NCBI RefSeq assembly: GCF_003019675.1
Contig: NZ_CP028105.1
Location: 2,062,282-2,126,281, forward strand
DNA from: Fusobacterium ulcerans
GTDB lineage: Bacteria; Fusobacteriota; Fusobacteriia; Fusobacteriales; Fusobacteriaceae
Reading direction: 5' to 3'
Length of the DNA stretch: 64,000 nucleotides
Shown: piece by piece, positions 16,402 to 37,160 of the stretch
How the letters are laid out: every line of letters begins with the position of its first letter
Numbering within the stretch: the stretch's first letter is position 1
Position numbers and translations under genes: made by a program
The notes under the pieces: model-generated
What the model was told of the DNA's origin: nothing
Database searches by the model: none
What the model saw: only the letters and a program-made list of their open reading frames with translations

Positions 16402-16436
16402 AGATAAATACAAAATAACTCAGGAGGCGATTTTTA

Positions 16437-17972
16437 ATGAGATTGGTAATAGGAGACAGAAGACTTACACTTGAAGATCTGATCAATGTCACAAGGAAAG
16501 GTTATAAAGTAGAAATATCAGAAGGGGCATATAAAAAAGTAGCAGAAGCTAGAGAGCTTGTAGATAGATATGTAAAAGAAAAAAAGGTGTCTTATGGAAT
16601 AACAACAGGATTTGGAAAATTTTCTGATACAGTTATTTCAGAAGAACAGACAGGACTGCTGCAAAAAAATCTAATAATGAGTCATTCATGTGGAGTGGGA
16701 AATCCTATTCCAGTGGATATGGCAAAGGGAATAATGCTTTTGAGAATAGTAAATTTGTCAAAAGGACATTCAGGAGTAAGAAAAATAGTTTTAGATACAT
16801 TGGTAGATATGCTGAATAAAGATGTAACTCCATTCATACCAGAAAAAGGATCACTGGGAGCTTCAGGAGATTTGGCACCACTATCACATATGGTGCTGGT
16901 AATGCTTGGAATGGGAAAAGCATATGTAAATGGAGAACTTTTAGATGGAGCAGAGGCTATGAAAAAAGCTGGAGTTCCTGTATTGGAAGAACTTTCATCA
17001 AAAGAGGGACTGGCACTTATCAATGGAACACAGGTAATGACATCAATTGGAGCACATGTAACATATGATGCAATCAATCTTATGAAACATCTGGATATAG
17101 CTGGGGCACTTACTATGGAAGCCTTAAATGGAATAACTTGTGCATTTGATCATAGAGTTCATGAAGTAAGAGGACATCAGGGACAAATAAGAACAGCTGA
17201 AAATTTCAGAAATATTCTGAAAGAAAGTAAATGTACAACAAAACAAGGAGAAATGAGAACACAAGATCCATATACACTGAGATGTATACCACAAATACAT
17301 GGAGCTAGTAAAGATGCACTTGAATTTGTAAGAGAAAAAGTTGAAATAGAGATGGATGCAGTAACTGATAATCCAATAATTTTCTGTGATACAGATGATG
17401 TTATTTCAGGAGGAAATTTTCATGGACAGCCTATGGCACTTCCATTTGATTTCTTAGGAATAGCAGTATCAGAGATGGCGAATGTTTCTGAAAGAAGAAT
17501 AGAAAGACTTGTAAATCCTCATCTTAATTGTGGACTTCCAGCATTTTTAGTTGAGAATGGAGGAGTAAATTCAGGATTTATGATAGTGCAGTACAGTGCA
17601 GCTTCTCTTGTATCTGAGAATAAAGTTCTGGCTCATCCAGCTTCTGTAGATTCTATACCTTCATCAGCAAATCAGGAAGATCATGTATCTATGGGAACTA
17701 TTGCAGCTAGAAAAGCAGGAGAAATACTGAAAAATGCAAGAAAAGTAATAGCTATGGAAATACTGTCAGCTTGTCAGGGAATAGATCTGAAAAAAGTAAA
17801 TAAGGATCTTGGACTTGGAACTGAAAAAGCGTATACAGCAGTAAGAGAAACAGTATCATACTATGACAAAGACAGAGTAATGAATCTGGATATCAATGCA
17901 GTGGAAGAATTAATCGAAAGAAATAAGATAGTAGAAAATGTAGAAAAAGTTATAGGGGAATTGAAAATATAG
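16437..17972 (+). CDS. hutH: Histidine ammonia-lyase
   Basis: The first step of histidine catabolism, L-histidine to trans-urocanate plus ammonia, in the cytoplasm. At 511 residues it has normal family length. The signature GSLGASGDLAPLSH near residues 138-151 contains the Ala-Ser-Gly that cyclises into the MIO electrophile. The N-terminal YGITTGFGKF supplies the catalytic Tyr loop, and further family segments are SANQEDHVSMG and HGQPMALPFD. The start follows CAGGAGGCGATTTTTA. hutU begins 12 bp after its stop. Confidence 0.97.
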   Translation: MRLVIGDRRLTLEDLINVTRKGYKVEISEGAYKKVAEARELVDRYVKEKKVSYGITTGFGKFSDTVISEEQTGLLQKNLIMSHSCGVGNPIPVDMAKGIMLLRIVNLSKGHSGVRKIVLDTLVDMLNKDVTPFIPEKGSLGASGDLAPLSHMVLVMLGMGKAYVNGELLDGAEAMKKAGVPVLEELSSKEGLALINGTQVMTSIGAHVTYDAINLMKHLDIAGALTMEALNGITCAFDHRVHEVRGHQGQIRTAENFRNILKESKCTTKQGEMRTQDPYTLRCIPQIHGASKDALEFVREKVEIEMDAVTDNPIIFCDTDDVISGGNFHGQPMALPFDFLGIAVSEMANVSERRIERLVNPHLNCGLPAFLVENGGVNSGFMIVQYSAASLVSENKVLAHPASVDSIPSSANQEDHVSMGTIAARKAGEILKNARKVIAMEILSACQGIDLKKVNKDLGLGTEKAYTAVRETVSYYDKDRVMNLDINAVEELIERNKIVENVEKVIGELKI

Positions 17973-17984
17973 GGGGAATAAAAA

Positions 17985-20012
17985 ATGATAAATAAAGATA
18001 TATATAATGCAATGACAATAAAACTTACAGCTCAGGATATACCAATGAAAATGCCTGAGATGGATCCAAAGATAAGAAGAGCTCCAAAGAGAGTAGTACA
18101 TTTGGAAAAAGATGAAATTGAATTAGCATTGAAAAATGCTTTGAGATATATACCAGAAGAGTATCATGAAATGCTGGCACCAGAATTTTTAAATGAATTG
18201 ATGGAGCATGGAAGAATATATGGATATAGATTCAGACCAGAGGGAAGAATTTATGGAAAACCTATAGATGAATATACAGGAAGATGTACAGAAGCTAGAG
18301 CCATGCAGGTAATGATAGACAATAATTTAGACTTTGAAATAGCACTTTATCCTTATGAGTTGGTTACTTATGGAGAAACAGGGCAGGTATGTCAAAACTG
18401 GATGCAGTATAGACTTATAAAAAAATATCTTGAAAATCTAACTCAAGATCAAACTTTAGTAGTGGCATCAGGACATCCTACTGGATTATTCAGATCAAAT
18501 CCATATGCACCAAGAGCTATCATAACTAATGCACTTATGGTAGGAGAATTTGACGATTATGATAACTGGGCAAGAGCAGCAGCTATTGGAGTAGCTAATT
18601 ATGGACAGATGACAGCTGGAGGATGGATGTACATCGGGCCTCAGGGAATAGTTCATGGAACTTATTCAACTATACTTAATGCTGCAAGACTTTTCTGCGA
18701 AGTGCCTAAAGATGGAGACCTTACAGGAAAATTATTTGTTACTTCTGGGCTTGGAGGAATGAGCGGAGCTCAAGGAAAAGCTACTGTAATAGCTAAGGGA
18801 GTAGGAATAGTAGCAGAAGTAGATATTTCTAGAATCCATACAAGACTTGAACAGGGATGGGTAGATAAAATAGCCAGAACTCCAGAGGAAGCATTTAATA
18901 TGGCAAGAGAAAAGCAGGAAGCTAAAGTTCCATATGCAATAGCATTCCATGGGAATATAGTAGATCTTTTAGAATATGCAGATAAAAACAATATACATAT
19001 AGACCTGCTTTCAGATCAGACATCATGTCATGCTGTCTATGATGGTGGATATTGTCCAGCAGGAATAACTTTTGAAGAAAGAACGAGATTGTTGGCAGAG
19101 GACAGAGAAACTTTTAATAAACTTATAGATGAAACATTGAGAAGACATTATGAAGTTATTAAAAAACTTACAGCTAAAGGAGTATACTTCTTTGACTATG
19201 GAAACAGTTTCCTTAAAGCTATCTACGATATAGGAGTTAAGGAAATATCTAAAAATGGAAGAGATGATAAAGGTGGATTTATATTCCCTTCATATGTAGA
19301 GGATATATTAGGACCAGAATTATTTGACTATGGATATGGACCATTTAGATGGGTATGTCTGTCTGGTAAAAAAGATGATTTATTGAAAACTGACCATGCA
19401 GCTCTTGAACTTGTAGATCCAAATAGAAGATACCAAGATAGAGACAACTACATGTGGATAAAAGACGCTGACAAAAATGGACTTGTAGTGGGAACACAGG
19501 CAAGAATATTCTATCAAGATGCAATGAGCAGAACAAGAGTAGCATTGAAATTCAATGAAATGGTAAGAAATGGAGAGATAGGGCCAGTTATGCTGGGAAG
19601 AGATCACCATGATGTATCAGGAACTGACTCACCATTTAGAGAGACATCAAATATAAAAGATGGAAGTAATATAATGGCAGATATGGCAACTCAATGTTTT
19701 GCAGGAAATGCAGCAAGAGGAATGACTATGATAGCTCTTCATAATGGTGGAGGAGTAGGAATAGGAAAATCTATTAATGGAGGATTTGGAATGGTCCTTG
19801 ATGGAAGTCATAGAGTAGATGAGATACTGATGCAGGCAATGCCTTGGGATGTAATGGGAGGCGTAGCAAGAAGAGCATGGGCTAGAAATCCACATTCTAT
19901 AGAAACAGTAATTGAATATAATAATGATAACAAAGGAACAGACCATATTACACTTCCATATATAGCCAATGATGATTTGATTAAAAAACTTGTTGATGGA
20001 AAAATAAAATAG
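17985..20012 (+). CDS. hutU: Urocanate hydratase, long form
   Basis: Converts urocanate to 4-imidazolone-5-propionate with tightly bound NAD+. It is recognised by FVTSGLGGMSGAQGKA, NYGQMTAGGWMYIGPQGIVH and GRDHHDVSGTDSPFRETSN. At 675 residues it is longer than the roughly 555-residue enzymes of Pseudomonas and Bacillus. The extra length appears as an N-terminal extension and internal insertions, as I recall for urocanases of several anaerobes. It sits between hutH and hutI with short gaps (12 and 28 bp). Confidence 0.95.
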   Translation: MINKDIYNAMTIKLTAQDIPMKMPEMDPKIRRAPKRVVHLEKDEIELALKNALRYIPEEYHEMLAPEFLNELMEHGRIYGYRFRPEGRIYGKPIDEYTGRCTEARAMQVMIDNNLDFEIALYPYELVTYGETGQVCQNWMQYRLIKKYLENLTQDQTLVVASGHPTGLFRSNPYAPRAIITNALMVGEFDDYDNWARAAAIGVANYGQMTAGGWMYIGPQGIVHGTYSTILNAARLFCEVPKDGDLTGKLFVTSGLGGMSGAQGKATVIAKGVGIVAEVDISRIHTRLEQGWVDKIARTPEEAFNMAREKQEAKVPYAIAFHGNIVDLLEYADKNNIHIDLLSDQTSCHAVYDGGYCPAGITFEERTRLLAEDRETFNKLIDETLRRHYEVIKKLTAKGVYFFDYGNSFLKAIYDIGVKEISKNGRDDKGGFIFPSYVEDILGPELFDYGYGPFRWVCLSGKKDDLLKTDHAALELVDPNRRYQDRDNYMWIKDADKNGLVVGTQARIFYQDAMSRTRVALKFNEMVRNGEIGPVMLGRDHHDVSGTDSPFRETSNIKDGSNIMADMATQCFAGNAARGMTMIALHNGGGVGIGKSINGGFGMVLDGSHRVDEILMQAMPWDVMGGVARRAWARNPHSIETVIEYNNDNKGTDHITLPYIANDDLIKKLVDGKIK

Positions 20013-23333: not shown

Positions 23334-23711
23334 CTATTTTACAGCAATAACTTCTATTTCAACTTTTACATCTTTTGGAAGTCTAGCAACTTCTACACAT
23401 GCTCTTGCAGGTTTTACATCTCCAAGATATTCAGCATAAACTTCGTTTACAGCTGCGAAATCGTTCATATCTTTAATGAACACTCCAGCTCTTACTACAT
23501 CTTTGAAAGTATATCCAGCAGCTTCAAGTATAGCTTTGATATTTTCTAGAGATTGTTTAGTTTGAGCTTTTACGCAGTCAGAAACTAAAGTCATTGTTTC
23601 AGGAACAAATGGAATTTGTCCAGATACATAAAGAGTTCCGTTAGCTTCAACAGCTTGTGAGTATGGTCCTAAAGCAGCAGGTGCTTTTTCAGTGTGAATT
23701 ATTTTTTTCAT
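23334..23711 (-). CDS. ridA: RidA-family enamine/imine deaminase
   Basis: A 125-residue cytoplasmic trimer-type protein that hydrolyses reactive enamine/imine intermediates made by PLP enzymes. Signature segments are [26 protein letters not shown] at the N terminus and [21 protein letters not shown] with the conserved Arg and Glu at the C terminus. It is the last gene of the leftward arm, 19 bp after hyuA and downstream of the PLP lyase ygeX. That lyase makes exactly this kind of 2-aminoacrylate intermediate, so the context fits well. Confidence 0.93.
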
Positions 23712-23730: not shown

Positions 23731-25068
23731 TTATATTCTTTTTATAAACTTACCTGATGATTTCATGATAAGTTCATTGTTTCTTATTATTATATTTCCT
23801 CTAAGTATAACTGTATCTATTACTGCTGAAAGAGGAAAATTTTCATAACAGCTGTATTTAGCAGCAGTATGCATATTTTCTATCTTTGAATTTTTTTTCT
23901 CAAATATTACTATATCAGCATCACTGCCTTTTGTCAATATACCTTTTTTAGGGAACAATCCAAATATTTTAGCTGGATTTTCACAGGCTGTTTTTAAAAA
24001 TGTCTCTACAGAAAGCCTTCCATTGATTACTTCATTAAATAATAAAGGGATTCTCTCTTCTACTCCGGGAATTCCATTGGGACACAATTTAAAATCATTT
24101 TTTCCTTTTGATTTATCCTCTAAAGTAAAAGAACAATGATCAGTTGCTATGACATCTATTCTGTTGCTGGCTAAAGCTTTTTTTATATATTCTGTATCCT
24201 CTTTTTTTCTCAAAGGCGGGCTTAAAATATAGTCAAGTCCATTTTCTTCCATATATTTTTCTTCTGTAAGGAAAAGATATTGAGGACAAGACTCTACAAA
24301 AAATCTGACTCCTCTTCTTCTGAAATCTTCAATTATTTCCATTGATTCTTTAGATGAAATATGAACCAGATAAAGCTTTTCAAAACCAGTTATTTCAGCA
24401 TAAGAGAGAAGCTTATACACTGAACATCCCTCAATAAAATCAGGTCTTGATTCAGCATGATATATAGGAGTGAGCTTATTTTCTTCAGTAAATTTACCTC
24501 TTAAAAATTCTATTCCCTTATCATCTTCAGAATGAACACAAACAACCATATCTAATTTTTTTGCATATTCAAACATTCTTAAAACATCATCATCAGTCAT
24601 CTTATAGGCATATGTCATGTATATTTTCACACTGTTGATGCCTCTTTTTTTCAAATCCTCCATCTGTGAAAATATATCACTGTAGACTTCTTGTACTACT
24701 CCATGAAAAGAATAATCTATATTGGAATTTTCAGCATCTTTCATATATTTATTTATCTGATAATCCAGTCCACATCCCTTTGGTCCAAATCCTGGGTGAT
24801 CTACAATAGTTGTAGTTCCACCAAAAGCTGCTGCTGCACTTCCAGAATAAAAGTCATCAGCTGATATTATTCCTACATCAATATTAAAATGAGTGTGGAC
24901 ATCAACTCCACCAGGAATAATATATTTTCCCTCAGCATCAAATATATTGCTGCAAATATCTTCAGAAATATCTTTATCTATTTTCTTTATTTTTTCATTC
25001 TCTATTAAAATATCCAGCTTTTCAATTTTGTTTCCTATTAATATATTTCCATTTTTTATCAACAGCAT
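23731..25068 (-). CDS. hyuA: D-hydantoinase/dihydropyrimidinase-type cyclic amidohydrolase (HyuA/YgeZ-like)
   Basis: Opens cyclic ureides or hydantoin-like rings. It is 445 residues. Metal ligands are HxH in GGVDVHTHFN, the carboxylated Lys in SVKIYMTY, His in VCVHSEDD and YLVHISS, and Asp in IATDHCSF. In E. coli the homologue (hyuA, ygeZ) is a phenylhydantoinase in the same neighbourhood; the natural substrate is more likely a purine-ring breakdown intermediate. It lies between ygeY and ridA, 30 bp after ygeY. The Shine-Dalgarno is AAGGAGTATTTTT before ATG. Confidence 0.9.
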   Translation of the reverse strand: MLLIKNGNILIGNKIEKLDILIENEKIKKIDKDISEDICSNIFDAEGKYIIPGGVDVHTHFNIDVGIISADDFYSGSAAAAFGGTTTIVDHPGFGPKGCGLDYQINKYMKDAENSNIDYSFHGVVQEVYSDIFSQMEDLKKRGINSVKIYMTYAYKMTDDDVLRMFEYAKKLDMVVCVHSEDDKGIEFLRGKFTEENKLTPIYHAESRPDFIEGCSVYKLLSYAEITGFEKLYLVHISSKESMEIIEDFRRRGVRFFVESCPQYLFLTEEKYMEENGLDYILSPPLRKKEDTEYIKKALASNRIDVIATDHCSFTLEDKSKGKNDFKLCPNGIPGVEERIPLLFNEVINGRLSVETFLKTACENPAKIFGLFPKKGILTKGSDADIVIFEKKNSKIENMHTAAKYSCYENFPLSAVIDTVILRGNIIIRNNELIMKSSGKFIKRI

Positions 25069-25098: not shown

Positions 25099-26283
25099 CT
25101 ATTTTGTTAAATAAGCTTTTAAAATTGCATAATATCCTTCAGTTACATTATATAGACTATCTAATTCTATGTATTCATCTATTGTATGTGCTAAGTTTTC
25201 TCTTGATGGTCCATATCCTATTGTTTTTATTCCTGCTTCTCCTGCATAGTGAGATCCATTTGTACAGAAATTATAGTGAGTGATTGTAGGAGTCTGTCCT
25301 ATTCCCTCTAAAGCTTTTAATGCTTTTTGTACATACTCATCTTTCTCTTCAAATAACCATCCTGGGAAGAATCTCTCTCCTTCTATTGTTGCACCAGTCC
25401 AGCATTTTTCTACTCCTCTTGCATATGATACTTTTGCTTTAAGAGTTTCATCTTCTTTTGCCATTTCATCTAGTAATTTTTGAATAGGTGCCAATACACT
25501 TTCAGGAGTTTCTCCTACTAGAAGTCTTCTGTCATAAGTTGCTCTGCAATAGTCAGGGACTACTGATGCTCCTGGGTATGGAGATGATTTTACATCTGTT
25601 AATTCAAGTATTCCATATCCCAATGTGTCATGGTGAGTCATTGGTAGTTTTTGAATATTTTCAATTATTTTCATCATTTTATATACTGCATTTATTCCTT
25701 TTTCTGGGTTAGCTGAGTGAGCAGGTTTTCCAAAAGTTTCTACTACTATTTCCCCTCTTCCTCTTTGTCCTATTTTAAGATTAAGCTGAGAAGCTTCTCC
25801 TATTATTACATAATCAGGTTTTACATATTTACTGATCTCTCTTGCTGCTACTCCTTCGAAACACTCTTCATGAACTACACCAGCTATGAATATTTCTCCA
25901 GCAAATTCTTTTTTAAGGTCTTGAGCTAAATATGCCCCAGCTAAAAGCATTGCGCACACAGCACCTTTCATGTCAGTAGTTCCTCTACCATATAGTTTAC
26001 CATCTTCTATATTTCCAGCAAAAGGTTTCTTAGTCCATTTTTCTTCATCTACTGGAACAGTGTCTATATGACCGTCCATAAGTACTTTTGGCCCTTCATA
26101 TTTTCCTTTTACAGAACCAATAACATTTCCGTACTTGTCTACATGTACAGTATCATACCCTACTTCAAGGCATAATTTTTTAATATATTCTGCTACTTCT
26201 TTTTCTTCTCCTGAATAACTTCTTCTTTGAATAAGGTTTTGAAGTACTTCTACTATCTGTTCTTTTCTTTCATTAGTCAACAT
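25099..26283 (-). CDS. ygeY: YgeY-family M20 metallohydrolase
   Basis: A 394-residue zinc-dependent hydrolase of the ArgE/DapE/ACY1 family, subgroup YgeY, which co-occurs with selenium-dependent molybdenum hydroxylases. Metal-site motifs are LMDGHIDTVPVD near residue 70, GRGTTDMKGAV, VHEECFEG and a C-terminal FCTNGSHYAG. It probably removes an acyl, carbamoyl or related group during purine-ring breakdown; the exact reaction is not readable. ATG follows AGGAGGAATTTAA. ygeX ends 36 bp upstream. Confidence 0.92.
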   Translation of the reverse strand: MLTNERKEQIVEVLQNLIQRRSYSGEEKEVAEYIKKLCLEVGYDTVHVDKYGNVIGSVKGKYEGPKVLMDGHIDTVPVDEEKWTKKPFAGNIEDGKLYGRGTTDMKGAVCAMLLAGAYLAQDLKKEFAGEIFIAGVVHEECFEGVAAREISKYVKPDYVIIGEASQLNLKIGQRGRGEIVVETFGKPAHSANPEKGINAVYKMMKIIENIQKLPMTHHDTLGYGILELTDVKSSPYPGASVVPDYCRATYDRRLLVGETPESVLAPIQKLLDEMAKEDETLKAKVSYARGVEKCWTGATIEGERFFPGWLFEEKDEYVQKALKALEGIGQTPTITHYNFCTNGSHYAGEAGIKTIGYGPSRENLAHTIDEYIELDSLYNVTEGYYAILKAYLTK

Positions 26284-26319
26284 TTAAATTCCTCCTGAAT
26301 TTTTTATTTAAAATATGAT

Positions 26320-27540
26320 TTATTTATTTGGATAAGCTCCGTTCCATACTACATTTTTGAACCCTTCTACATCTGTATCTCCTTCAGTGCTGATACATAG
26401 TATTCTTGAGTTTTCATCTAATTTAAGTTCTTTCATAAGTTCTTTGTATTCTTCTTTCTTTTCTGAAAGAATAGTGAATAGTCCCAGCCCTACAGCTCCT
26501 GATTCCCCAGAAATAACTCTTGTATCTGTTCCAAGAGGACTAGAAAGTACTCTCATTCCTCTAGCTGCAACCTGATCATCACATGATACAGAGAAGTCTG
26601 CATTGTCTCTTAATATTTTCCAGCTGATAGTATTTGGTTCTCCACAAGCAAGTCCAGCCATTATAGTAGTAAGATCTCCAGTTACATTATGTGGATTTCC
26701 ATCATTAGCTTCCATAGATTTATATATACAGTTAGCTCCATGAGGTTCACAGATAACTGTTATTGGTCTGTCATCTCCATAAAGGTGAGCTAAATATCCT
26801 TGTACTGCCCCTGCGAATGATCCTACCCCAGCTTGAAGAAATACATGAGTAGGTTTTTCTTCTTTAGCTGCTTCCAGCTGCTCTACTACTTCATTTATTA
26901 TTGTTGAATATCCCTGCATGATCCATAGAGGAATTTCTTCATATCCGTCCCATGCAGTATCCTGTACCATTATCCATCCATGATCTTGTGCACCTTTATT
27001 AGCAAGTCTTACAGCATCATCATAGTTAAGATCAGTTATACTTACATCTGCTCCTTCTTTAGCTATTGCATCAAATCTCATTTGAGCAGAACCTTTAGGC
27101 ATATATACAACAGATTTTTGTCTAAGTCTTGCAGCCATCCATGCTACACCTCTACCGTGGTTACCATCAGTAGCAGTAACAAAAGTAACATCTCCAAGCT
27201 GTTTTTTTACTTCATCAGAGATAAGCACATTGAAAGGAAGATCTTTCATGTCTCTATTAAGTTTTTGACTAAGATATTTCCCTATTGCATATGATCCCCC
27301 AAGTACTTTGAAAGCATTCAGTCCGAATCTTTTAGATTCATCCTTCATCCATACTTTTTTAACACCATAGTATGAAGCAAGAGTTTTCAGATCAACTAAA
27401 GGAGTTGCCTGATAATCAGGGAGACTTTTATGAAAGTCATAAACCTCTTTCATTTCCTCAGAGCTAAATCCTGAAAGTTCAGATTTTTTATATCCAGCAT
27501 CTCTGCTTTTTTTATTGTGTACCCATTTTAATAATTCCAC
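26320..27540 (-). CDS. ygeX: Diaminopropionate ammonia-lyase (YgeX)
   Basis: A PLP-dependent lyase converting 2,3-diaminopropionate to pyruvate and two ammonia. It is 406 residues, close to the E. coli enzyme. The PLP lysine lies in NAFKVLGGSYAIG near residue 77, the phosphate-binding loop in TATDGNHGRGVAWMA and a further family segment in GVGSFAGAVQGYL. The start is GTG at 27540 with GAGGAGGATTTTAAA in front. It is the first gene of the leftward arm, and a sigma-54-type promoter lies 48 bp upstream. Diaminopropionate is a proposed late intermediate of the anaerobic purine route, which fits this neighbourhood. Confidence 0.93.
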   Translation of the reverse strand: MELLKWVHNKKSRDAGYKKSELSGFSSEEMKEVYDFHKSLPDYQATPLVDLKTLASYYGVKKVWMKDESKRFGLNAFKVLGGSYAIGKYLSQKLNRDMKDLPFNVLISDEVKKQLGDVTFVTATDGNHGRGVAWMAARLRQKSVVYMPKGSAQMRFDAIAKEGADVSITDLNYDDAVRLANKGAQDHGWIMVQDTAWDGYEEIPLWIMQGYSTIINEVVEQLEAAKEEKPTHVFLQAGVGSFAGAVQGYLAHLYGDDRPITVICEPHGANCIYKSMEANDGNPHNVTGDLTTIMAGLACGEPNTISWKILRDNADFSVSCDDQVAARGMRVLSSPLGTDTRVISGESGAVGLGLFTILSEKKEEYKELMKELKLDENSRILCISTEGDTDVEGFKNVVWNGAYPNK

Positions 27541-27587
27541 TTTAAAATCCTCCTCAATATATTATTTTATTTTTAATTATATAACAA

Positions 27588-27602
27588 GCAATTTTTATGC
27601 CA
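27588..27602 (-). promoter_or_regulatory. Sigma-54 (-24/-12) promoter of the ygeX arm
   Basis: The minus strand reads TGGCATAAAAATTGC, matching TGGCAY-N7-TTGC with 12 bp from the -24 G to the -12 G. It points into ygeX, 48 bp from its start, and the activator gene is adjacent. Confidence 0.85.
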
Positions 27603-27683
27603 GAGCAAATATTTTTTTTATAGTATTTATTTTTAAAGAAAAAGTGGTTTTTTATATGAAAATTTAATTATTTAAAAAAATCC

Positions 27684-27716
27684 TATCATTATGATAATTT
27701 CAATATCATAATGATA
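27684..27716. promoter_or_regulatory. Paired enhancer-like dyads, also the terminator of the activator gene
   Basis: TATCATTATGATA at 27684-27696 and TATCATAATGATA at 27704-27716 have centres 20 bp apart. Together they also form a 15-bp perfect stem whose minus-strand side is followed by a run of seven T, right after the activator stop at 27727. The same dyad recurs twice at 29573-29607. The distance to the ygeX -24/-12 box is about 80-130 bp, typical for activator binding sites. Confidence 0.75.
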
Positions 27717-27726
27717 GGGAATATAG

Positions 27727-29487
27727 TTACACTTCATTTAATTTATATTTGTCTATTTTTCTATAGAGAGTTGCAATTCCTATACCAAGTCTATCAGCAG
27801 CTTTGTTTTTACAGTTTGAATCATCCTTATACAGGTCTAAAGCTTTTTTTATCATAACTTTTTCCATTTCTTCAATGGTACATATATCATCACTGTCATT
27901 GAGAGAAATAACTTTACTACTTTTTACATTTTCTTTATTCTTTAAGATATTGTCATAAAGCATAGTTTTAGTTATTCTTCCAGAATCATCAGCCATATTT
28001 ACCATAAATTCTATAATGTTTTCAAGTTCTCTGACATTTCCAGGCCATGAATAATTTTTTAATATCTCTTTTACATCATCATCTATTGTATGAACATATT
28101 TATTGAAAATGTTGTTGTATTTTTCTATAAGCTTATCAATGATAAGGAAAAGGTCGTGGTCTCTTTCGCAAAGAGGGGGAATTTCAATAGGAATTACATT
28201 TAATCTATAATATAGATCCTCTCTGAATTTATTTTCCTCTACCATTTTTTTTAAATCCATATTAGTAGCAGCTATTACTCTGAGATCTAGATTAATAAGC
28301 TTGTTTGATCCTATTCTTACCAAAGTTCTTTCCTGTAATACTCTTAGAAGTTTTACCTGTAAAGAGTATGGCATTTCCCCTATCTCATCCAGAAATATAT
28401 CTCCAGTATTGGCAAGTTCAAATTTTCCTACTCTACCTTCTGAACTGGCACCACTAAATGCACCTTTTACATAACCAAAGAGCTCACTTTCTAAAAGAGA
28501 GTCAGGAATAGCACCGCAGTTGATTGCTATAAAAGGTCTGTTTCTTCTTTCACCGCTGTCATGAATGGCTCTGGCTACTAATTCTTTTCCAGTTCCGCTT
28601 TTTCCAGTGATAAGGACAGTAGATTTAGTATCTGCCACTTTTCTTATTTTATTTTTCAAACTTTGCATTACTTCAGATTCCCCAATTATAGCATCTAAAG
28701 CTGATGATTCATTATTTCCCTTTGTACTTTTGGGAATATCAGTATTTACATTATCAAAGATAAATATAGTATAGGCTTTTTCATTTATTGAAGATATCGG
28801 AATTGAAACTCCAACCATATTAAAATATTTATCATCAATTGTCATTTCAAATATATCTTTTCCAAGAATAGTAAGTTTTTTAGAAACAATATTTACCTGC
28901 TTTGAAGTATAGTCTGCTCCTAGCTTCATAGTTTTCATTGCAGGTTTATTTGCATTGACGATGTAATTATTAGCATCTAAAGAAAGGACACATTTATCCA
29001 TATTATTTAATATTTGTTTGAAAACATCATTCACTTCTTGAGTTTTTATTTCATTTTGATATTCATATACTTTTCCAGATATAAAGTCACCTATTTGTTC
29101 AAGAAACTTAAGATAAGAGTCAAGGTTGCTAAGAACTTTATTTTTTTGTAAATCCGTAGTACATATAAGTCCAATTACTCCGATTACTTCATCTTTATAT
29201 AATATAGGAGAAGAGAGCTCCAGCTTTTCTTTACATTCTTTTTTATAATTACATTTTTTACAAAGTTCATGTTTTCTAGGCTCTGTAATTAAAAGACTTT
29301 TTTTAGTATTAATTACTTCTTTATATACAACACCACTTACTATTTCATTATTTTTATCTTGAAATAAACCAGTTCCAGCTATTCTTACAAGATCAGCATC
29401 AACTATTTCTACTTCTGCTTCAATTACATTAGATATTATATTAGCATACTTTTTTACATGATTTTCTATATTTTTTAGTTTAGACAT
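27727..29487 (-). CDS. ygeV: Sigma-54-dependent transcriptional activator (YgeV-like)
   Basis: An enhancer-binding protein driving RNA polymerase with sigma-54. It is 586 residues from ATG 29487, preceded by TGGAGGTCACAG; a longer frame to 29514 lacks such a site. The N-terminal half has GAF-like and PAS-like sensory regions, with a cysteine cluster LCKKCNYKKEC near residue 85. The AAA+ core follows at about 285-520: Walker A GKSGTGKE, loop GAFSGA (a Ser variant of GAFTGA), Walker B GDIFLDEIGE and arginine-finger region LYYRLNVIPIE. A Fis-type HTH closes the protein (AADRLGIGIATLYRKIDKY). It sits between two sigma-54 promoters. E. coli YgeV has the same place in the homologous cluster. Confidence 0.92.
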   Translation of the reverse strand: MSKLKNIENHVKKYANIISNVIEAEVEIVDADLVRIAGTGLFQDKNNEIVSGVVYKEVINTKKSLLITEPRKHELCKKCNYKKECKEKLELSSPILYKDEVIGVIGLICTTDLQKNKVLSNLDSYLKFLEQIGDFISGKVYEYQNEIKTQEVNDVFKQILNNMDKCVLSLDANNYIVNANKPAMKTMKLGADYTSKQVNIVSKKLTILGKDIFEMTIDDKYFNMVGVSIPISSINEKAYTIFIFDNVNTDIPKSTKGNNESSALDAIIGESEVMQSLKNKIRKVADTKSTVLITGKSGTGKELVARAIHDSGERRNRPFIAINCGAIPDSLLESELFGYVKGAFSGASSEGRVGKFELANTGDIFLDEIGEMPYSLQVKLLRVLQERTLVRIGSNKLINLDLRVIAATNMDLKKMVEENKFREDLYYRLNVIPIEIPPLCERDHDLFLIIDKLIEKYNNIFNKYVHTIDDDVKEILKNYSWPGNVRELENIIEFMVNMADDSGRITKTMLYDNILKNKENVKSSKVISLNDSDDICTIEEMEKVMIKKALDLYKDDSNCKNKAADRLGIGIATLYRKIDKYKLNEV

Positions 29488-29505
29488 CTGTGACCTCCAT
29501 AAAAG

Positions 29506-29527
29506 AGCAGTCAAAAATTATGACCGC
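29506..29527. promoter_or_regulatory. Inverted repeat in the leader of the activator gene
   Basis: AGCAGTCA at 29506-29513 and TGACCGCT at 29520-29527 are an inverted repeat with one mismatch, 18 bp before the activator start. On the minus strand a TATAAT box lies just upstream (around 29537-29545), so the repeat would be at the 5' end of the mRNA. It may be an operator or a small RNA hairpin. Confidence 0.4.
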
Positions 29528-29572
29528 TTTTAACCATTATATCATATATTTTATAAAAAGAAAGGAAGAGTT

Positions 29573-29607
29573 TATCAAAATGATATTTATTTTTTATCAT
29601 TATGATA
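29573..29607. promoter_or_regulatory. Paired enhancer-like dyads upstream of ssnA
   Basis: TATCAAAATGATA at 29573-29585 and TATCATTATGATA at 29595-29607 have centres 22 bp apart and lie about 105-140 bp upstream of the ssnA -24/-12 box. The second copy is identical to the one at 27684. This is the expected placement for binding sites of the adjacent sigma-54 activator. Confidence 0.75.
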
Positions 29608-29711
29608 ATGAGAAGAGATTTAGTGAATGATTTTTTTAAAATTTAAATGGTTTTTATATTAATAATGAAAAATTAGGTGACTGTGGAAGAATTTGTATAT
29701 TTTTATTGTAT

Positions 29712-29726
29712 TGGCATACATATTGC
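29712..29726 (+). promoter_or_regulatory. Sigma-54 (-24/-12) promoter of the ssnA arm
   Basis: TGGCATACATATTGC has the -24 GG and -12 GC 12 bp apart, followed by TTTT. It lies 39 bp before the ssnA start. Its first six bases equal those of the ygeX promoter. Confidence 0.85.
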
Positions 29727-29765: not shown

Positions 29766-31091
29766 TTGATATTAATCAATGGAAGAATAATAACTCAAGA
29801 TATTGAAAGACCATACATAGAAAATGGAAGTATAGTCATAAAGGGAGAAAAAATAGTAGATTTAGGTAATACTGAAGATATGATAAAAAAATATCCCCAT
29901 GAAGAAATTGAAGATGTCAAAGGAAAAGTAATAATGCCTGGGCTGATAAATACTCATCATCATATTTATAGCGCCTTTGCCAGAGGGATGAAATCTAATG
30001 GAAAACCTTCAAAAGATTTTATTGAAATACTTGAAAATCTTTGGTGGAAGCTGGACAAAAAATTAAACTTGGAAGATGTGGAATACAGTGCTTTGACAAC
30101 ATATACAGATTGTATAAAAAATGGAGTAACAACAGTATTTGACCACCATGCAAGTCCTTATGCCATAACAGGAAGTCTGGAAACTATAGCAGAAGCAGCA
30201 AATAAATTAGGAATAAGAACATGCCTTTGTTATGAAGTTTCTGATAGAGACGGAATGGAAATAATGGAAGAAGGAATAAAAGAAAATATAAACTTTATAA
30301 AAAAATATAACACTGATTCTCAAAATATGATAAAGGGAATGTTTGGACTTCATGCTTCTTTTACTCTGTCAGATGCAAGTCTGAGAAGATGTGATGAAGA
30401 GATGAAAGGACTTAATGCTGGATATCATGTACATACAGCTGAAGGAAAAGCTGATCTAGAAGATTCATTGAAAAAATATAATAAAAGAGTAGTTGAAAGA
30501 TTGAGAGATTTTAATATTCTTGGAGATAAAACTATAGCAGTTCACTGTATCCATATAAATGAAGAGGAAATGAACATCCTTAGAGATACAAAAACAAATG
30601 TAGTACATAATGCTGAATCTAATATGGGAAATGCAGTTGGATGTTCTCCATTTTTGGAAATGTTTGCTAAAGGAATAAATATAGGAATAGGAACAGATGG
30701 GTATACAAGTGATATGTTTGAGTCTATGAAAGTAGCTAATATTTTGCACAAACATGAAAAGAAAGATCCTTCAGCAGCATGGGGAGAAGTACCAACAGCT
30801 CTATTTGAAAATAATAGAAAAATAGCTGAAAAATATTTTAAGGGAGATATAGGAGTAATCAAAGCAGGAGCATTAGCTGATGTAATAGTAGTAGATTATG
30901 ATCCTCTTACTCCAATGGATGGAAATAACACTAATGGTCACATACTTTTTGGAATGATGGGAAGAAGTGTAGTGACAACTATAATAAATGGAAAAATAGT
31001 AATGAAAGACAGAAAACTCCTTACAGGAGATGAAAAAGGAATATTTGGACACTCAAGGGAAACAGCACAAAAATTGTGGAATAGAATGTAA
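29766..31091 (+). CDS. ssnA: SsnA-family aminohydrolase
   Basis: A 441-residue metal-dependent amidohydrolase related to chlorohydrolase and guanine deaminase, in the SsnA subgroup linked to selenium-dependent molybdenum hydroxylases. Metal ligands are HxH in INTHHHIYSAFARGM, a His in YHVHTAEG and AVHCIHI, and an Asp in IGTDGYTSD. It probably deaminates or ring-opens a purine-derived intermediate. The start is TTG at 29766 after ATAGGAGGGAATATT. It is the first gene of the rightward arm, and the permease follows after 27 bp. Confidence 0.9.
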   Translation: MILINGRIITQDIERPYIENGSIVIKGEKIVDLGNTEDMIKKYPHEEIEDVKGKVIMPGLINTHHHIYSAFARGMKSNGKPSKDFIEILENLWWKLDKKLNLEDVEYSALTTYTDCIKNGVTTVFDHHASPYAITGSLETIAEAANKLGIRTCLCYEVSDRDGMEIMEEGIKENINFIKKYNTDSQNMIKGMFGLHASFTLSDASLRRCDEEMKGLNAGYHVHTAEGKADLEDSLKKYNKRVVERLRDFNILGDKTIAVHCIHINEEEMNILRDTKTNVVHNAESNMGNAVGCSPFLEMFAKGINIGIGTDGYTSDMFESMKVANILHKHEKKDPSAAWGEVPTALFENNRKIAEKYFKGDIGVIKAGALADVIVVDYDPLTPMDGNNTNGHILFGMMGRSVVTTIINGKIVMKDRKLLTGDEKGIFGHSRETAQKLWNRM

Positions 31092-31118: not shown

Positions 31119-32471
31119 ATGATGGATATCAAAGCAGCAAATGTAGGACAAATCAGCTCAATAGATACAATGCTGAGCCCAAAAGAACTTTTTCTTTTTG
31201 GAATGCAGCATATAGCAGCAATGTGTGCAGGAGCTATGGCAGTTCCTATCATTCTTGGAAATTCTTTGGGAATGACATATGATCAAATAAGTATATTAGT
31301 AGCTGCCTCTTTTATGATGGCAGGATTGGGAACTATTATACAAACTTTAGGTATTGGAAAAAAAATAGGGTCAAGACTTCCAATGGTGGAAGGAGTAAGT
31401 TTTGCAGGAGTAGCAGCTCTATCTGCTGTAGGAGTGGCATATAGAGATGCAGATCCAGTAATGGGAATACAAGTGATGATGGGAGCAACTATTATTTCAG
31501 GAGTATTTTGTATAGTGGTAGCACCAGTGTTTGGAAAATTACTGAAATTTTTTCCACCTCTTGTATCAGGAGTAGTAGTTACATGTATGGGATTATCCCT
31601 TATACCAGTAGCTATTAGATGGATAGGAGGAGGAAATCCTTCAGCAGAAAATTTTGGTAATTTTAAAAGTATACTTTTAGCTGGAATAACTTTGATAATA
31701 ATAGTGGGAATTCAGAAAATATCAAAGGGATTTCTTGGAAATATAGCTATTTTATTAGGAATAATAGCAGGAACATTAATAGCTATACCTATGGGAATGG
31801 TAGAATTTTCAAATGTTTCTGAAGCAGGAATTTTTAACCTTAATACACCATTGTATTTTGGAATGCCAAAGTTTGATATAACAGCAGTACTGTCTCTGTT
31901 TTTGGTACAGTTAGTAATTATGACAGATGCAACTGGGAATCAACTGAATCTCAGTAATATCTGTAAGGCTGATGAAAAAGATGAAGGAAGGCTGGTAGCA
32001 GGATTGAGAGCCCATGGACTTTCTTCAGTATTAGGTGGGCTATTTAATACATTTCCACACTCACTTTTTGGGCAGAATGTAGGAATAGCTGCAATAACAG
32101 GAGTATCAAGCCGTTTTGTAGGAACCGCAGCAGGAGTAATGCTTCTGGCAGTGAGTTTTTTTCCTAAGCTCATAAATATACTTACATCTATTCCAGAACC
32201 AGTATTAGGCGGAGCAGGAATAATAATGTTTGGTATAGTTGCAGCCAATGGAATAAAAAGACTTGGAGAAGTAAACTACAATGGAAATAAAAATCTTATG
32301 ATAGTTGCTACAAGTATAGGAATAGCCCTTATACCAATAGCAGTACCAGAGTTTTTTAAACATTTTCCAAGCTGGGGAAAAATACTTTTTCAAAGTCCAG
32401 TAACTTTAGGATGCCTTTCAGTGCTTATACTGAATATAATCTTCAATGAATTAGGAAAGAGCAAGAAGTAA
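31119..32471 (+). CDS. NCS2-family xanthine/uric acid (or uracil) permease
   Basis: A 450-residue inner-membrane purine/pyrimidine symporter with about 12-14 membrane segments. The NCS2 signature is in FGQNVGIAAITGVSSRFVG, and the substrate-region motif ATGNQ lies near residue 270. The E. coli cluster carries the urate transporter UgpU (YgfU), so xanthine or urate is likely here. The start is ATG 31119 with GGGGGTATTTTA in front; ATG 31122 is a possible alternative. Confidence 0.88.
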   Translation: MMDIKAANVGQISSIDTMLSPKELFLFGMQHIAAMCAGAMAVPIILGNSLGMTYDQISILVAASFMMAGLGTIIQTLGIGKKIGSRLPMVEGVSFAGVAALSAVGVAYRDADPVMGIQVMMGATIISGVFCIVVAPVFGKLLKFFPPLVSGVVVTCMGLSLIPVAIRWIGGGNPSAENFGNFKSILLAGITLIIIVGIQKISKGFLGNIAILLGIIAGTLIAIPMGMVEFSNVSEAGIFNLNTPLYFGMPKFDITAVLSLFLVQLVIMTDATGNQLNLSNICKADEKDEGRLVAGLRAHGLSSVLGGLFNTFPHSLFGQNVGIAAITGVSSRFVGTAAGVMLLAVSFFPKLINILTSIPEPVLGGAGIIMFGIVAANGIKRLGEVNYNGNKNLMIVATSIGIALIPIAVPEFFKHFPSWGKILFQSPVTLGCLSVLILNIIFNELGKSKK

Positions 32472-32606: not shown

Positions 32607-33704
32607 ATGGCAGATATAAGAGTTAAAATAGCAGGTTTAGAATATGAGAATCCAGTGATAGTGGCAGCAGGACCACCTTCAAAGGATGCAGAAGCATGCA
32701 GAGCATGTGTAGAAAATGGAGCAGCAGGAGTAGTTGCAAAAACTGTATCAGCAGTTCCAGCAAATGTACCAAAACCATGTATGCACGACTTTAAAGGAAA
32801 ACTATTTCTTAATACAGAATTATGGTCTGAACTTTCAGTGGAACACTGGATGGCAGAGGAATATGAAAAATGTAAAGTAAATAATGAACCATTAATAATA
32901 GGAATGGGATATGTAGAATCTGATATTAGAACCCTTATACCTATGCTGGATAAATATGCAGATGCTTATGAGATTTCAAGCCACTATGTAGGAAGAGATC
33001 TTACTCCTATGCTGAATACATTGAGAGCAGCAAAGGAACTTACTAAAAAGCCGGTATTTATGAAAGTGTCTCCAGGAGTTGAGAATTTAGGAGAAGTAGG
33101 AAGAATTTTAGAAGAAAATGGAGCTGATGGGTTAGTAGCTATCAACTCAGTAGGTCCTTGTCTTTCAATAGATATAGAAACTGGAAAACCATTTATGGGA
33201 AGTGCAACAGGATATGGTTGGATGTCAGGAGCAGCTATAAAACCAATAGCATTGAGAGTTGTATATGAACTTGCAAAAGCAGTAAAAATCCCAGTATTTG
33301 GTGTAGGTGGAGTTACTTGCGGAGCAGATGTTATAGAAATGGTAATGGCAGGAGCAGCAGCAGTTCAAGTATGTACTCAGGGAATAATCGAAGGGCCTAA
33401 AGCTTTTGGAAGAATAGCAAAAGAGACTAATGAGTGGCTGGATAAACATGGGTATAATTCGTTAGATGAAATAAGAGGAATAACAATAAAATATTTAGCT
33501 GAAAGAGAAAAAGCTAACTATATTACAAATCCTCCAGTTGTATCAGAAGATAAATGTATAGGATGTGGAATCTGTAAAACTGTATGTGGATATAAAGCAA
33601 TAGAAATAGTTGAGAAAAAAGCTGTTATTAATAAGGATAAATGTTTTGGATGCGGAGTATGCGTTTCTAAATGTCCTACAAAAGCTATGGATATAGCTAG
33701 ATAA
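32607..33704 (+). CDS. PreA-like dihydroorotate-dehydrogenase-fold Fe-S oxidoreductase
   Basis: 365 residues. A flavin (FMN) TIM-barrel related to dihydropyrimidine dehydrogenase subunit PreA and dihydroorotate dehydrogenase spans about 1-290 (VKIAGLEYENPVIVAAGPP, FMKVSPGVENLGE, VPVFGVGG-type strand PVFGVGGVTCGADV). Two C-terminal 4Fe-4S motifs follow near 314-360: CIGCGICKTVC and CFGCGVCVSKCP. Electrons probably pass between the clusters and FMN. The usual partner PreT is absent here. Between the permease and xanthine dehydrogenase it may do the reductive step that YgfK is proposed to do in E. coli; that is inference. The start follows TAGGAGGAAAA. Confidence 0.85.
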   Translation: MADIRVKIAGLEYENPVIVAAGPPSKDAEACRACVENGAAGVVAKTVSAVPANVPKPCMHDFKGKLFLNTELWSELSVEHWMAEEYEKCKVNNEPLIIGMGYVESDIRTLIPMLDKYADAYEISSHYVGRDLTPMLNTLRAAKELTKKPVFMKVSPGVENLGEVGRILEENGADGLVAINSVGPCLSIDIETGKPFMGSATGYGWMSGAAIKPIALRVVYELAKAVKIPVFGVGGVTCGADVIEMVMAGAAAVQVCTQGIIEGPKAFGRIAKETNEWLDKHGYNSLDEIRGITIKYLAEREKANYITNPPVVSEDKCIGCGICKTVCGYKAIEIVEKKAVINKDKCFGCGVCVSKCPTKAMDIAR

Positions 33705-33721
33705 AAATAATGGAGGGAAAT

Positions 33722-36292
33722 ATGGGAGAGGTATACACTTTTATAGTAAATGGGCAAAAAATAGAAACTTCCCAAGATAAAAATTTATTAGATTTCCTTA
33801 GGGACGATTTGGGACTTATTTCAGTAAAAAATGGTTGTAAAGAAGGTGCCTGTGGTACTTGTACAGTACTCATAGATGGGAAGGCAATGAAATCTTGTAT
33901 ATTTACTACTAAGAAAATAGCTGGTAAAGTGATAGGAACTATAGAAGGATTTTCAGAAAGAGACAAAGAAGTCTTTGCCTATGCATTCACTGAGTGTGGA
34001 GCAGTACAGTGTGGATTCTGTATTCCAGGAATGGTTATAGCAGCAAAAAGTCTTTTTATGAAGACTCTTGCTCCTACTAGAGAGGAAGTAAAAAAGGCTC
34101 TGGTTGGAAATATTTGCAGATGTACTGGATATGTAAAGATAGAGGAAGCAATACTTCTGGCAGCAGAATTATTCAGAGAAAATAAAGAAGTTCCAAAAAC
34201 TCAATGTGCAGGATTGGTGGGAACACATGTACCAAGAGTAGATGGAGCTGTAAAAACATTAGGAACAGCAAAATATGCTGAAGACTATAAAGAAGATGGA
34301 ATGTACTATGGAAGTGCAGTGAGAACAAAATATCCTAGAGCAAAAGTACTGTCTATTGATTACAGTGAGGCTTTGAAACTGGATGGAGTTCTAGGTGTAC
34401 TTACAGCAGCAGATGTTCCAGGAAAAAATAATATAGGACATTTGGAATTTATCTCTGACTGGGATGCCCTCATACCAGTTGGAGGTATAACAAGATATAT
34501 TGGTGATGCAGTAGCATTAGTAGCTGCTAAAGATAAGAAAACACTTGAAGAAGCTAAAAAGCTTGTAAAAGTAGAATATGAAGAACTTGAGGGATTATTC
34601 ACAATAGAAGATGCCATGGCTGACGGAGCTCCTCTTATCCATTCTAAACCTAATAATGTTTTGGTAAGAGAGGTATTGAAAAGAGGGGATTATGAAGGGG
34701 CTCTGTTAAATTCAAAATATAGTGTGACAAATGTATATGAAACACCTGCAACAGAACATGCTTATCTGGAGCCTGAATCAGCTCTTGCTATGCCTGATGG
34801 AAATGGAGGTATAGAAATACATACTTCCAGTCAGTCTGTATATGATGAACAAAGAGAAATAGCAAGACTTCTTGGATTGGAAAAAGATCAGGTAAGAGTA
34901 AAATCAGCATATGTAGGTGGAGGATTTGGTGGAAAAGAGGATATGTCTGTGCAGCACCATGCAGCTCTTCTGGCATATGTTCTGAAAAAACCTGTTCAAG
35001 TAACTTTGAGCAGACAGGAAAGTATAAATATAAGCACTAAAAGACATCCTATGAAAATAGAAATGACTACATGTTGTGATGAAAATGGAATACTTACAGG
35101 AATGAAATGTAAAATATACGCTGATACAGGAGCTTATGCTTCATTGGGAGGACCCGTACTGCAAAGAGCATGTACTCATGCAGCTGGACCATATAATTAT
35201 CAGAATATTGATATTGAAGGAATAGCTGTTTACACAAATAATCCTGTGGGAGGAGCATTCAGAGGATTTGGAGTTACACAATCAGCTTTTGCCATAGAGG
35301 CAAATATAAATCAGCTGGCAGAACTTACAGGACTTTCTCCATGGGAAATAAGATATAGAAATGCTATCAGACCAGGGCAGGTACTTCCTAATGGACAGAT
35401 AGCTGATGAAGGAACGGCTCTAGTAGAAACACTTGAAGCTGTAAAGGATGAATATTTTAATAATAAGATAGTAGGAATTGCATGTGCAATGAAAAATGCA
35501 GGAGTGGGAGTAGGACTTCCAGATATAGGGAAATGCCGACTTACTGTAGAAGATGGAAAAGTAAGGATAAGAACATCAGCAGCTTGTATAGGACAGGGAA
35601 TGGCAACAGTTTGTTTACAGATGCTGTGTGAAACTACTGGACTAACAGCAGATAAAGTAATAGTTGATTCTCCAGATACAGGGATAACTCCTAATAGTGG
35701 AACTACGACTGCTTCAAGGCAGACAGTATTCACAGGAGAGGCAACAAGGGTAGCTTCTCTGGAACTAAAGAAACAACTTAAAACAAAAACACTGGAAGAG
35801 CTGGAAGGTTGGGATTATGAAGGACAGTATTCAGGAATTACAGACAAATTGGGATCGGATAAGCCTAATCCTGTAAGTCATGTGGCTTATGGATATGCTA
35901 CTCAGATAGTAATATTGGATGAAAATGGAAAAGTTAAGAAAGTAACTGCTGCTCATGATGTAGGTCGTGCTATCAATCCAAAAGCTTTAGAAGGACAGAT
36001 AGAAGGTGGAGTAGTTATGGGACTTGGATATGGACTTACTGAAATTATGCCTGTGGAAAAAGGAGTACCTAAAGTAAAATTTGGAACTCTGGGACTATTC
36101 AGAGCTACAAATACTCCAGAAATTGAAGCTGTAATAGTAGAAAAAAACAAAGAAGAACTAGCTTATGGAGCAAAGGGAGTAGGAGAAATAGTTGTTATTC
36201 CTACAGCACCAGCTATTCAAAATGCTTATTTTAAATATGATGGGGAGTTTAGAACTTCTCTTCCACTTCAAAAAACAGCATATAGAAAATAA
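33722..36292 (+). CDS. xdhD: Xanthine dehydrogenase/purine hydroxylase, fused Fe-S and molybdenum subunits
   Basis: A molybdenum hydroxylase of the selenium-associated type. It is 856 residues from ATG 33722, chosen for TGGAGGGAAAT just upstream. The N-terminal 160 residues carry two [2Fe-2S] motifs: CKEGACGTC with a later Cys, then CGFC with CRC. The molybdopterin domain follows (YVGGGFGGKED, GGAFRGFGVTQ, and catalytic Glu in GAKGVGE near the C terminus). There is no FAD domain and no separate FAD subunit in the window, so electrons must leave by another partner, possibly the PreA-like protein 17 bp upstream. Labile selenium is a family expectation and is not visible in sequence. Confidence 0.92.
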   Translation: MGEVYTFIVNGQKIETSQDKNLLDFLRDDLGLISVKNGCKEGACGTCTVLIDGKAMKSCIFTTKKIAGKVIGTIEGFSERDKEVFAYAFTECGAVQCGFCIPGMVIAAKSLFMKTLAPTREEVKKALVGNICRCTGYVKIEEAILLAAELFRENKEVPKTQCAGLVGTHVPRVDGAVKTLGTAKYAEDYKEDGMYYGSAVRTKYPRAKVLSIDYSEALKLDGVLGVLTAADVPGKNNIGHLEFISDWDALIPVGGITRYIGDAVALVAAKDKKTLEEAKKLVKVEYEELEGLFTIEDAMADGAPLIHSKPNNVLVREVLKRGDYEGALLNSKYSVTNVYETPATEHAYLEPESALAMPDGNGGIEIHTSSQSVYDEQREIARLLGLEKDQVRVKSAYVGGGFGGKEDMSVQHHAALLAYVLKKPVQVTLSRQESINISTKRHPMKIEMTTCCDENGILTGMKCKIYADTGAYASLGGPVLQRACTHAAGPYNYQNIDIEGIAVYTNNPVGGAFRGFGVTQSAFAIEANINQLAELTGLSPWEIRYRNAIRPGQVLPNGQIADEGTALVETLEAVKDEYFNNKIVGIACAMKNAGVGVGLPDIGKCRLTVEDGKVRIRTSAACIGQGMATVCLQMLCETTGLTADKVIVDSPDTGITPNSGTTTASRQTVFTGEATRVASLELKKQLKTKTLEELEGWDYEGQYSGITDKLGSDKPNPVSHVAYGYATQIVILDENGKVKKVTAAHDVGRAINPKALEGQIEGGVVMGLGYGLTEIMPVEKGVPKVKFGTLGLFRATNTPEIEAVIVEKNKEELAYGAKGVGEIVVIPTAPAIQNAYFKYDGEFRTSLPLQKTAYRK

Positions 36293-36926: not shown

Positions 36927-37160
36927 TAGGAAATATACAAAAAATCTCAGATAAATGTGTCTGAGTTTTTTTATTTTCAGAAAAAATAAAAATGGCGGTA
37001 AAAAATAAGAGATGATTCTTAAAAATTATTTTATAATTTAAATTTATATTTTTGCTTTTACTTAGAAAGAAATATAGAGAATTAAAAAAAATGAGAAAAA
37101 GAAAAAAAGAGCAGAAAAAGATAAAAAAATTATAGAGAAATAAAAAAATAAAAAACAAGA

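Follow-up and report, generated by a model that had tools for sequence, protein, structure and literature searches.

Fusobacterium ulcerans carries a purine gene cluster in which two divergent arms, headed by ygeX and ssnA, flank the gene for a sigma-54 activator. The window, by which we mean the whole stretch of DNA that was analysed, comprises 64,000 nucleotides of contig NZ_CP028105.1 (positions 2,062,282 to 2,126,281). From its sequence we are highly confident that the segment at 27.3-29.8 kb is a hub through which sigma-54 controls the reductive, anaerobic breakdown of uric acid and xanthine; it would act through paired activator sites. Each arm has a -24/-12 element and, farther upstream, a pair of short palindromes; the coordinates of these and other features are collected in Table 1.

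The original prediction placed two 15-mers on either side of the activator gene, and both are present: TGGCATAAAAATTGC on the minus strand (27602-27588) and TGGCATACATATTGC on the plus strand (29712-29726), each followed by T (TTGCT). As had been claimed, the first G of the GG and the G of the GC are 12 nt apart (GG-N10-GC), the canonical geometry, and the boxes are directed into ygeX and ssnA, whose start codons (GTG and TTG) follow the box starts by 62 and 54 nt, respectively. These are the only two exact matches to TGGCAY-N5-TTGC in the window. The null for boxes was a set of dinucleotide shuffles of the window, in which the mean is 0.11 and 1 of 100 shuffles reaches 2. With one mismatch allowed there are 10 matches in the window, the two exact ones included, compared with 4.6 expected. 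The 3.54-Mb chromosome has 17 exact boxes and no match to the reversed pattern, and most of the 17 stand 36-82 nt ahead of an open reading frame (ORF) in the same direction.

The rpoN gene that the prediction presupposes is intact (G000:C1:492724-493164, 151 bits); it is a 445-codon open frame with the RpoN box ARRTIAKYRE at its C-terminal side. A second, weak match at 1746078 (21.9 bits) was under the cut-off and was not taken as rpoN. Strong sigma-54 activator domains number 17 in the genome. The 17 versus 0 boxes, the intact rpoN and the 17 activator domains together mean that the sigma-54 system is in all likelihood in use in this genome.

Missing from the original prediction were the palindromes. 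They are 13 bp long, with the form TATCA-N3-TGATA, and one pair lies upstream of each box as candidate upstream activator sites (UAS). The pair centres are 88 and 108 bp from the ygeX box and 111 and 133 bp from the ssnA box, within the enhancer range of 80-250 bp. All four TATCANNNTGATA sites of the window belong to these two pairs, where 0.33 sites are expected and 0 of 100 shuffles reach 4. The chromosome contains 10 distinct TATCAWWATGATA sites, six of them at modules of an activator gene with ygeX (four in the window and one at each of two further loci, B and C, described below). Three of the other four are apparently inside coding sequence and one is before a cold-shock gene. This last site is a lone TATCAAAATGATA (G000:C1:2805418-2805430) directly before a cold-shock-protein-like gene, with no sigma-54 box in view. 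Three of the 17 exact boxes, all before ygeX or ssnA genes, have such a palindrome within 300 bp. The palindrome as a general feature of sigma-54 promoters was ruled out, since it is absent from the other 14 boxes in this genome.

Boxes and palindromes are retained in related species. In the three closest congeners the activator is 95, 92 and 90% identical to that of the window (95% in G025, 90% in G027). Both boxes are kept in two of these relatives, G025 and G027. On the ssnA side, the box and the two palindromes match those of the window base for base in all three congeners, though the DNA between them has diverged. The ygeX box and its pair are kept in G025, with one base changed in a palindrome, and in G027, where the box reads TGGCACAGAAATTGC, with two changes, in the spacer and the -24 part. 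In G027 the palindromes, and the hairpin that they form, remain with the box, but an inserted gene lies between them and the activator gene. In G026 ygeXY is gone from this place, and a box, TGGCATAGAAATTGC, stands before the remaining hyuA without palindromes. The hyuA and ssnA genes of G026 (L039, L153) are both frame-broken, one of them at a homopolymer run; we did not adopt gene decay as the explanation, since the break in the homopolymer run may be a sequencing error. More distant Fusobacteriaceae keep a box ahead of ygeX or ssnA, mostly together with one to three palindromes.

A further line of evidence comes from relatives whose activator has lost the loop that contacts sigma-54. SsnA is found in 24 of 61 Fusobacteriaceae, the family to which genomes of Cetobacterium and Propionigenium also belong. 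We considered the activators of this family that are linked to ygeX or ssnA and have a readable loop; a box was counted as exact if it had TTGC together with TGGYAY or TGGCAY. Where the loop is intact (GAF(T/S)GA or GSFTGA; n=25), an exact box is found in 21 cases and a box with one or two mismatches in four. Where it has been lost by deletion or divergence (n=7), no box is found in any case, even a relaxed one. This association has no exception (Fisher p 1e-4, uncorrected for common descent), and because the two loop-less proteins included in the tree form one clade, the loss may be a single event. Box and loop thus appear to be kept or lost together, as the sigma-54 model requires. In three of the seven loop-less genomes (G001, G046, G047) no rpoN reaches the family cut-off, and in four it is kept. 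The loop-less activators keep the ATLYRK helix, most have palindromes before ygeX, and in G046 TTGTTT-N17-TATAAT precedes ygeX; these relatives have probably switched from sigma-54 to sigma-70 type control. Loop-less activators were seen beside ygeX at L071, L082, L177-L181, L183 and L186. A parallel is offered by TyrR, DhaR and HupR, former sigma-54 activators that lack GAFTGA (PMC3162934). Unlike these, the window activator retains the loop, and its loop-less relatives retain the recognition helix and, in most cases, palindromes before ygeX.

The activator has the full AAA+ core that had been predicted between the boxes (PF00158, 240.8 bits, with the lid PF25601), together with a Fis-type helix-turn-helix (HTH) domain (PF02954) and a sensor region with a weak match to SpoVT_C. 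With its Walker motifs, a contact loop of the GAFTGA type and the HTH, it has the build of a bacterial enhancer-binding protein. Its ORF can be read from a TTG at 29514, and its start is probably the ATG at 29487, which has GGAGG 6 nt upstream. A hairpin, AGCGGTCATAATTTTTGACTGCT, at 29506-29528 of the minus strand lies in the 5' leader ahead of the start codon and could be a leader control element. The sigma-54 contact loop is GAFSGA, not GAFTGA, and this form is common to all examined members of the clade, from Fusobacteriaceae and Clostridium; GAFTGA or GSFTGA is found in the paralogues of the window activator and in E. coli YgeV. The description 'YgeV-like' is apt as regards the 39% identity to E. 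coli YgeV, although our tree does not join the two as closest kin. In this tree, made without C. difficile DioR, the window activator joins its congeners, Clostridium activators beside purine genes are near, and E. coli YgeV is elsewhere on a long branch. The window activator gene adjoins ygeX, ygeY, ssnA, pbuX and xdh genes.

For a view beyond Fusobacteriota, SsnA was used as a marker and 80 clusters were fetched from named genomes, giving a test set of 25 non-fusobacterial promoters with a sigma-54 box before a purine gene. The dyad search was unbiased: every 4-mer dyad with a gap of 0-15 was tallied, and the tallies were compared with dinucleotide shuffles. The top dyads were TATC-N5-GATA (12 of 25 promoters, 0.21 expected) and ATCA-N3-TGAT (12 of 25, 0.31 expected), which together make TATCANNNTGATA. 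In E. coli, ygfK has a -24/-12-like element with TATCATAATGATA 182 bp upstream of it, and degenerate palindrome pairs precede xdhA and ygeW. Since the boxes of ygeW and ygfK in this species are off consensus (TGGCACACTTATTGT and TGGTGCGATTGTTGC), its evidence is stronger for the palindrome than for the box. Clusters of the Lachnospiraceae/Blautia type have ssnA, with no such activator in the stretch examined and mostly no box; sigma-54 control is therefore not universal for the pathway. A sister clade of activators, found beside cysteine desulfidase genes and in this genome at 1.2695 Mb, has sites of the form TTTCANNNTGAAA (TTTCA-N3-TGAAA). Its recognition helix is GIGLTTLYRK (loci L007, L049, L051, L054, L062), compared with GIGIATLYRK, and a one-residue, one-base recognition rule between the two clades is possible.

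We assign the cluster by family and context to the UacX/UacY type of reductive uric-acid cluster. UacX and the reductive gene set in its UacX form have been defined (PMC12507026), and of that set (XdhD-like, UacX, UacY, SsnA, HyuA, YgeY, YgeX) all but UacY are encoded in the window. In the left arm the intergenic gaps are about 20-37 bp and the last gene abuts a convergent gene; no terminator-like structure was found between genes within either arm. Inside hyuA, about 200 bp before ridA, is a sequence TTGACA-N17-TATAGT with TG before the second hexamer (23937-23909, minus strand; 11 of 12 positions match), and ridA may have its own sigma-70 promoter there. Elsewhere in the window, 15103-20012 holds consecutive genes for an antiporter, an aromatic amino acid (histidine-type) ammonia-lyase and a urocanase, probably for histidine degradation, with no exact sigma-54 box, and 51716-56071 encodes a 1451-aa protein with DUF5724 and DUF4132.

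Table 1. Features of the cluster and its control region (positions in the window)
Feature	Position	Strand	Details
Sigma-54 -24/-12 element, left arm (ygeX)	27588..27602	-	TGGCATAAAAATTGC; identical in G025, TGGCACAGAAATTGC in G027
Sigma-54 -24/-12 element, right arm (ssnA)	29712..29726	+	TGGCATACATATTGC; identical in three congeners
Candidate UAS, proximal, ygeX arm	27684..27696	.	TATCATTATGATA; in G025 (one change) and G027
Candidate UAS, distal, ygeX arm	27704..27716	.	TATCATAATGATA; 20 bp from proximal; kept in G025 and G027
Candidate UAS, distal, ssnA arm	29573..29585	.	TATCAAAATGATA; identical in three congeners
Candidate UAS, proximal, ssnA arm	29595..29607	.	TATCATTATGATA; 22 bp from distal; identical in three congeners
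15-bp hairpin then T7, built from the two left UAS sites	27682..27718	-	folding z -6.8
YgeV/DioR-like sigma-54 activator	27727..29487	-	sensor region, AAA+ domain, Fis-type HTH
ygeX, diaminopropionate ammonia-lyase	26320..27540	-	TIGR03528, 631 bits (cut-off 532)
ygeY, M20-family hydrolase	25099..26283	-	NF009555, 500 bits (cut-off 321)
hyuA-like dihydropyrimidinase/hydantoinase	23731..25068	-	TIGR02033 above cut-off
ridA/tdcF-like (Ribonuc_L-PSP), last gene of left arm	23334..23711	-	PF01042
ygeXY segment repeated at locus B	25100..27554	-	99.7% identity over 2455 bp
ssnA, aminohydrolase	29766..31091	+	NF005540, 690.8 bits
Xanthine/uric-acid type permease (pbuX family)	31119..32471	+	TIGR03173 above cut-off
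UacX-type dihydroorotate-dehydrogenase-like reductase with 4Fe-4S domain	32607..33704	+	PF01180 + Fer4; stands in for YgfK
Selenium-dependent xanthine dehydrogenase homologue	33710..36292	+	TIGR03311, 1388 bits
Terminator-like hairpin with T7 after right arm	36946..36965	+	

The missing UacY-type amidohydrolase (PF07969) has a homologue at locus B, 1.03 Mb away. In 11 relatives a UacY-type enzyme is beside ygeY in the cluster itself, mostly between ygeY and ssnA, and the locus B homologue is 61-67% identical to these. The gene order at locus B is a second ygeX-ygeY copy, a transporter and then the UacY-type gene, all divergent from a second activator gene (43% identical); the box is TGGTATGGTTTTTGC and the sites are of the TCTCA, TATCA and TCTCA types. 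At locus C an activator gene is accompanied by a ygeX paralogue (50% identical), with a box and one palindrome or more. The uric-acid pathway therefore seems, on gene content, to be split between two sigma-54 modules in this genome.

The ygeXY copy at locus B (L035 3239-5693; G000:C1 about 1.0582-1.0607 Mb) is nearly identical to that of the window, and the identity ends 14 bp upstream of the ygeX start, so that the two promoters differ. In three species the copies within a genome are 99.8, 99.4 and 98.0% identical, while between species the figure is about 94%. The copies have presumably been homogenised by gene conversion, that is, by concerted evolution under two different sigma-54 promoters.

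From the boxes, site pairs, rpoN, domains, conservation and joint loss we infer how the hub would work as regards binding, ATP-dependent activation, inducer and operon extents. An activator of the YgeV/DioR type would bind the paired TATCA-N3-TGATA sites as dimers that assemble into a higher oligomer, the palindromes 88-133 bp upstream of each -24 element serving as its sites. Its N-terminal domain would sense a signal, most likely a compound of the purine pathway, and its AAA+ ATPase would remodel the sigma-54 RNA polymerase poised at both -24/-12 promoters. Both operons would then start, ygeX-ygeY-hyuA-ridA leftward and ssnA-permease-uacX-xdh rightward. The original prediction had made the whole cluster one sigma-54 regulon. 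That view holds for both arms, but it needs amending in three respects: no sigma-54 box was found for the activator gene itself, ridA may have a sigma-70 promoter, and a second module completes the pathway.

The palindromes could be explained without an activator if the left pair were only the terminator of the activator gene, as its 15-bp stem and T7 tail (27682-27718, z -6.8) would allow, and the right pair an AT-rich repeat that arose by chance. However, the motif is also upstream of ssnA, where there is no gene end and no T-run; purine genes with sigma-54 promoters have it upstream as well in Clostridium, Desulfosporosinus, Propionigenium, Cetobacterium and E. coli; and in G027 the hairpin stays with the box while the inserted gene lies between it and the activator gene. 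We consider this account very unlikely, and the left hairpin may both bind activator and terminate the activator gene. It is likewise highly improbable that sigma-70 promoters also or mainly drive both arms, with the sigma-54 boxes of little weight. Sigma-70-like matches do occur throughout this AT-rich region, including the good one in hyuA before ridA, yet their count (83, with 71.9 expected) is close to that of shuffled DNA, conservation in the two intergenic regions falls on the boxes and UAS, and boxes are absent exactly where the activator has lost its sigma-54 loop. Interchange among activators, such that the paralogues of loci B and C activate the cluster no less than its own activator, we regard as rather doubtful. 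The promoters of both loci also bear TATCAAAATGATA sites and the recognition helices are alike, but the locus B sites are mostly of the TCTCANNNTGAGA variant, each activator adjoins its own target, and identity between the paralogues and the window activator is only 40-43%.

Some observations weigh against sigma-54 control through paired sites, which remains our preferred explanation. The left UAS pair also forms a good terminator hairpin. Seven of the 12 motif-bearing promoters outside Fusobacteriota are from Desulfosporosinus alone, the other five being from separate Clostridium or Bacillota lineages, so that the effective sample is smaller than 25. Several Desulfosporosinus ygeX boxes are without a palindrome, as are the ygeX boxes of G020 and G021. 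Finally, most single changes in the contact loop lower activity, and the window activator has GAFSGA; the same survey groups Ser with Thr at this loop position (PMC3162934).

Comparison with known systems indicates that the switch is very probably the fusobacterial version of one already described in C. difficile and E. coli. SigL promoters of C. difficile pbuX, dpaL1, dpaL2 and tdcF have been assigned to DioR1/DioR2, with a mapped start for pbuX and lower expression of dpaL2 in a sigL mutant (Soutourina 2020, PMC7438776). The DioR regulon has been reconstructed in Clostridiales with its function listed as "unknown" (Nie 2019, PMC6615313). The DioR1/DioR2 system shares with ours a sigma-54 activator, the box consensus and the genes dpaL (ygeX), pyrC (hyuA-like), argE (ygeY), tdcF (ridA), pbuX and ssnA; it differs in that placement of the activator between two divergent arms is a fusobacterial arrangement.

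In E. coli, the YgeV iModulon comprises xdhABC, ygeWXY-hyuA, ygfK-ssnA-ygfM-xdhD and uacT (PMC12132413), genomic systematic evolution of ligands by exponential enrichment (SELEX) found RpoN binding at ygeV/ygeW (PMC8743547), and YgeV has been renamed IsrR for an indole-related role (PMC9426417). YgeV resembles the window activator in domain order, in sequence (39% identity over 600 columns), in an identical GIGIATLYRK helix, in its purine cluster and in the TATCATAATGATA site before ygfK. Unlike the window, E. coli has GAFTGA in place of GAFSGA and YgfK/YgeW enzymes where clusters of the window type have UacX/UacY.

Two other activators are comparable. Of the NCBIfam models, PrdR (NF041552) matches the activator best (380 bits) and has the same sensor-AAA+-HTH build, but the activator is far under the 795-bit cut-off and PrdR sites are TGT-N10-12-ACA (PMC6615313). 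The CdsR-like activators of the cysteine desulfidase clade are about 50% identical, with the same box geometry and dyad build, and differ in their sites and helix as described above; the name CdsR is taken from the target gene and not from an orthology test. Among the papers searched, none was found on sigma-54 control of this pathway in Fusobacteriota, and the phylum is not treated in PMC12316311. What appears to go beyond these precedents is an operator shared across phyla and the linked disappearance of loop and box.

A broader proposal, which we hold to be evenly balanced between right and wrong, is that the pairing of TATCA-N3-TGATA with GIGIATLYRK is a recognition code for the control of anaerobic uric-acid genes that spans Fusobacteriota, Bacillota and Pseudomonadota, that loss of loop and box in Cetobacterium-like relatives moved the operator to sigma-70-type control, and that in the sister clade a change of A to T in the helix went with a change of TATCA to TTTCA. 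The analysis provides a predicted operator, with named promoters, for activators of the YgeV/DioR type that would be common to E. coli, Clostridium and Fusobacterium. The joint loss of loop and box is a natural experiment that favours the sigma-54 link, and uric-acid breakdown in anaerobes of the gut is relevant to urate levels in the host.

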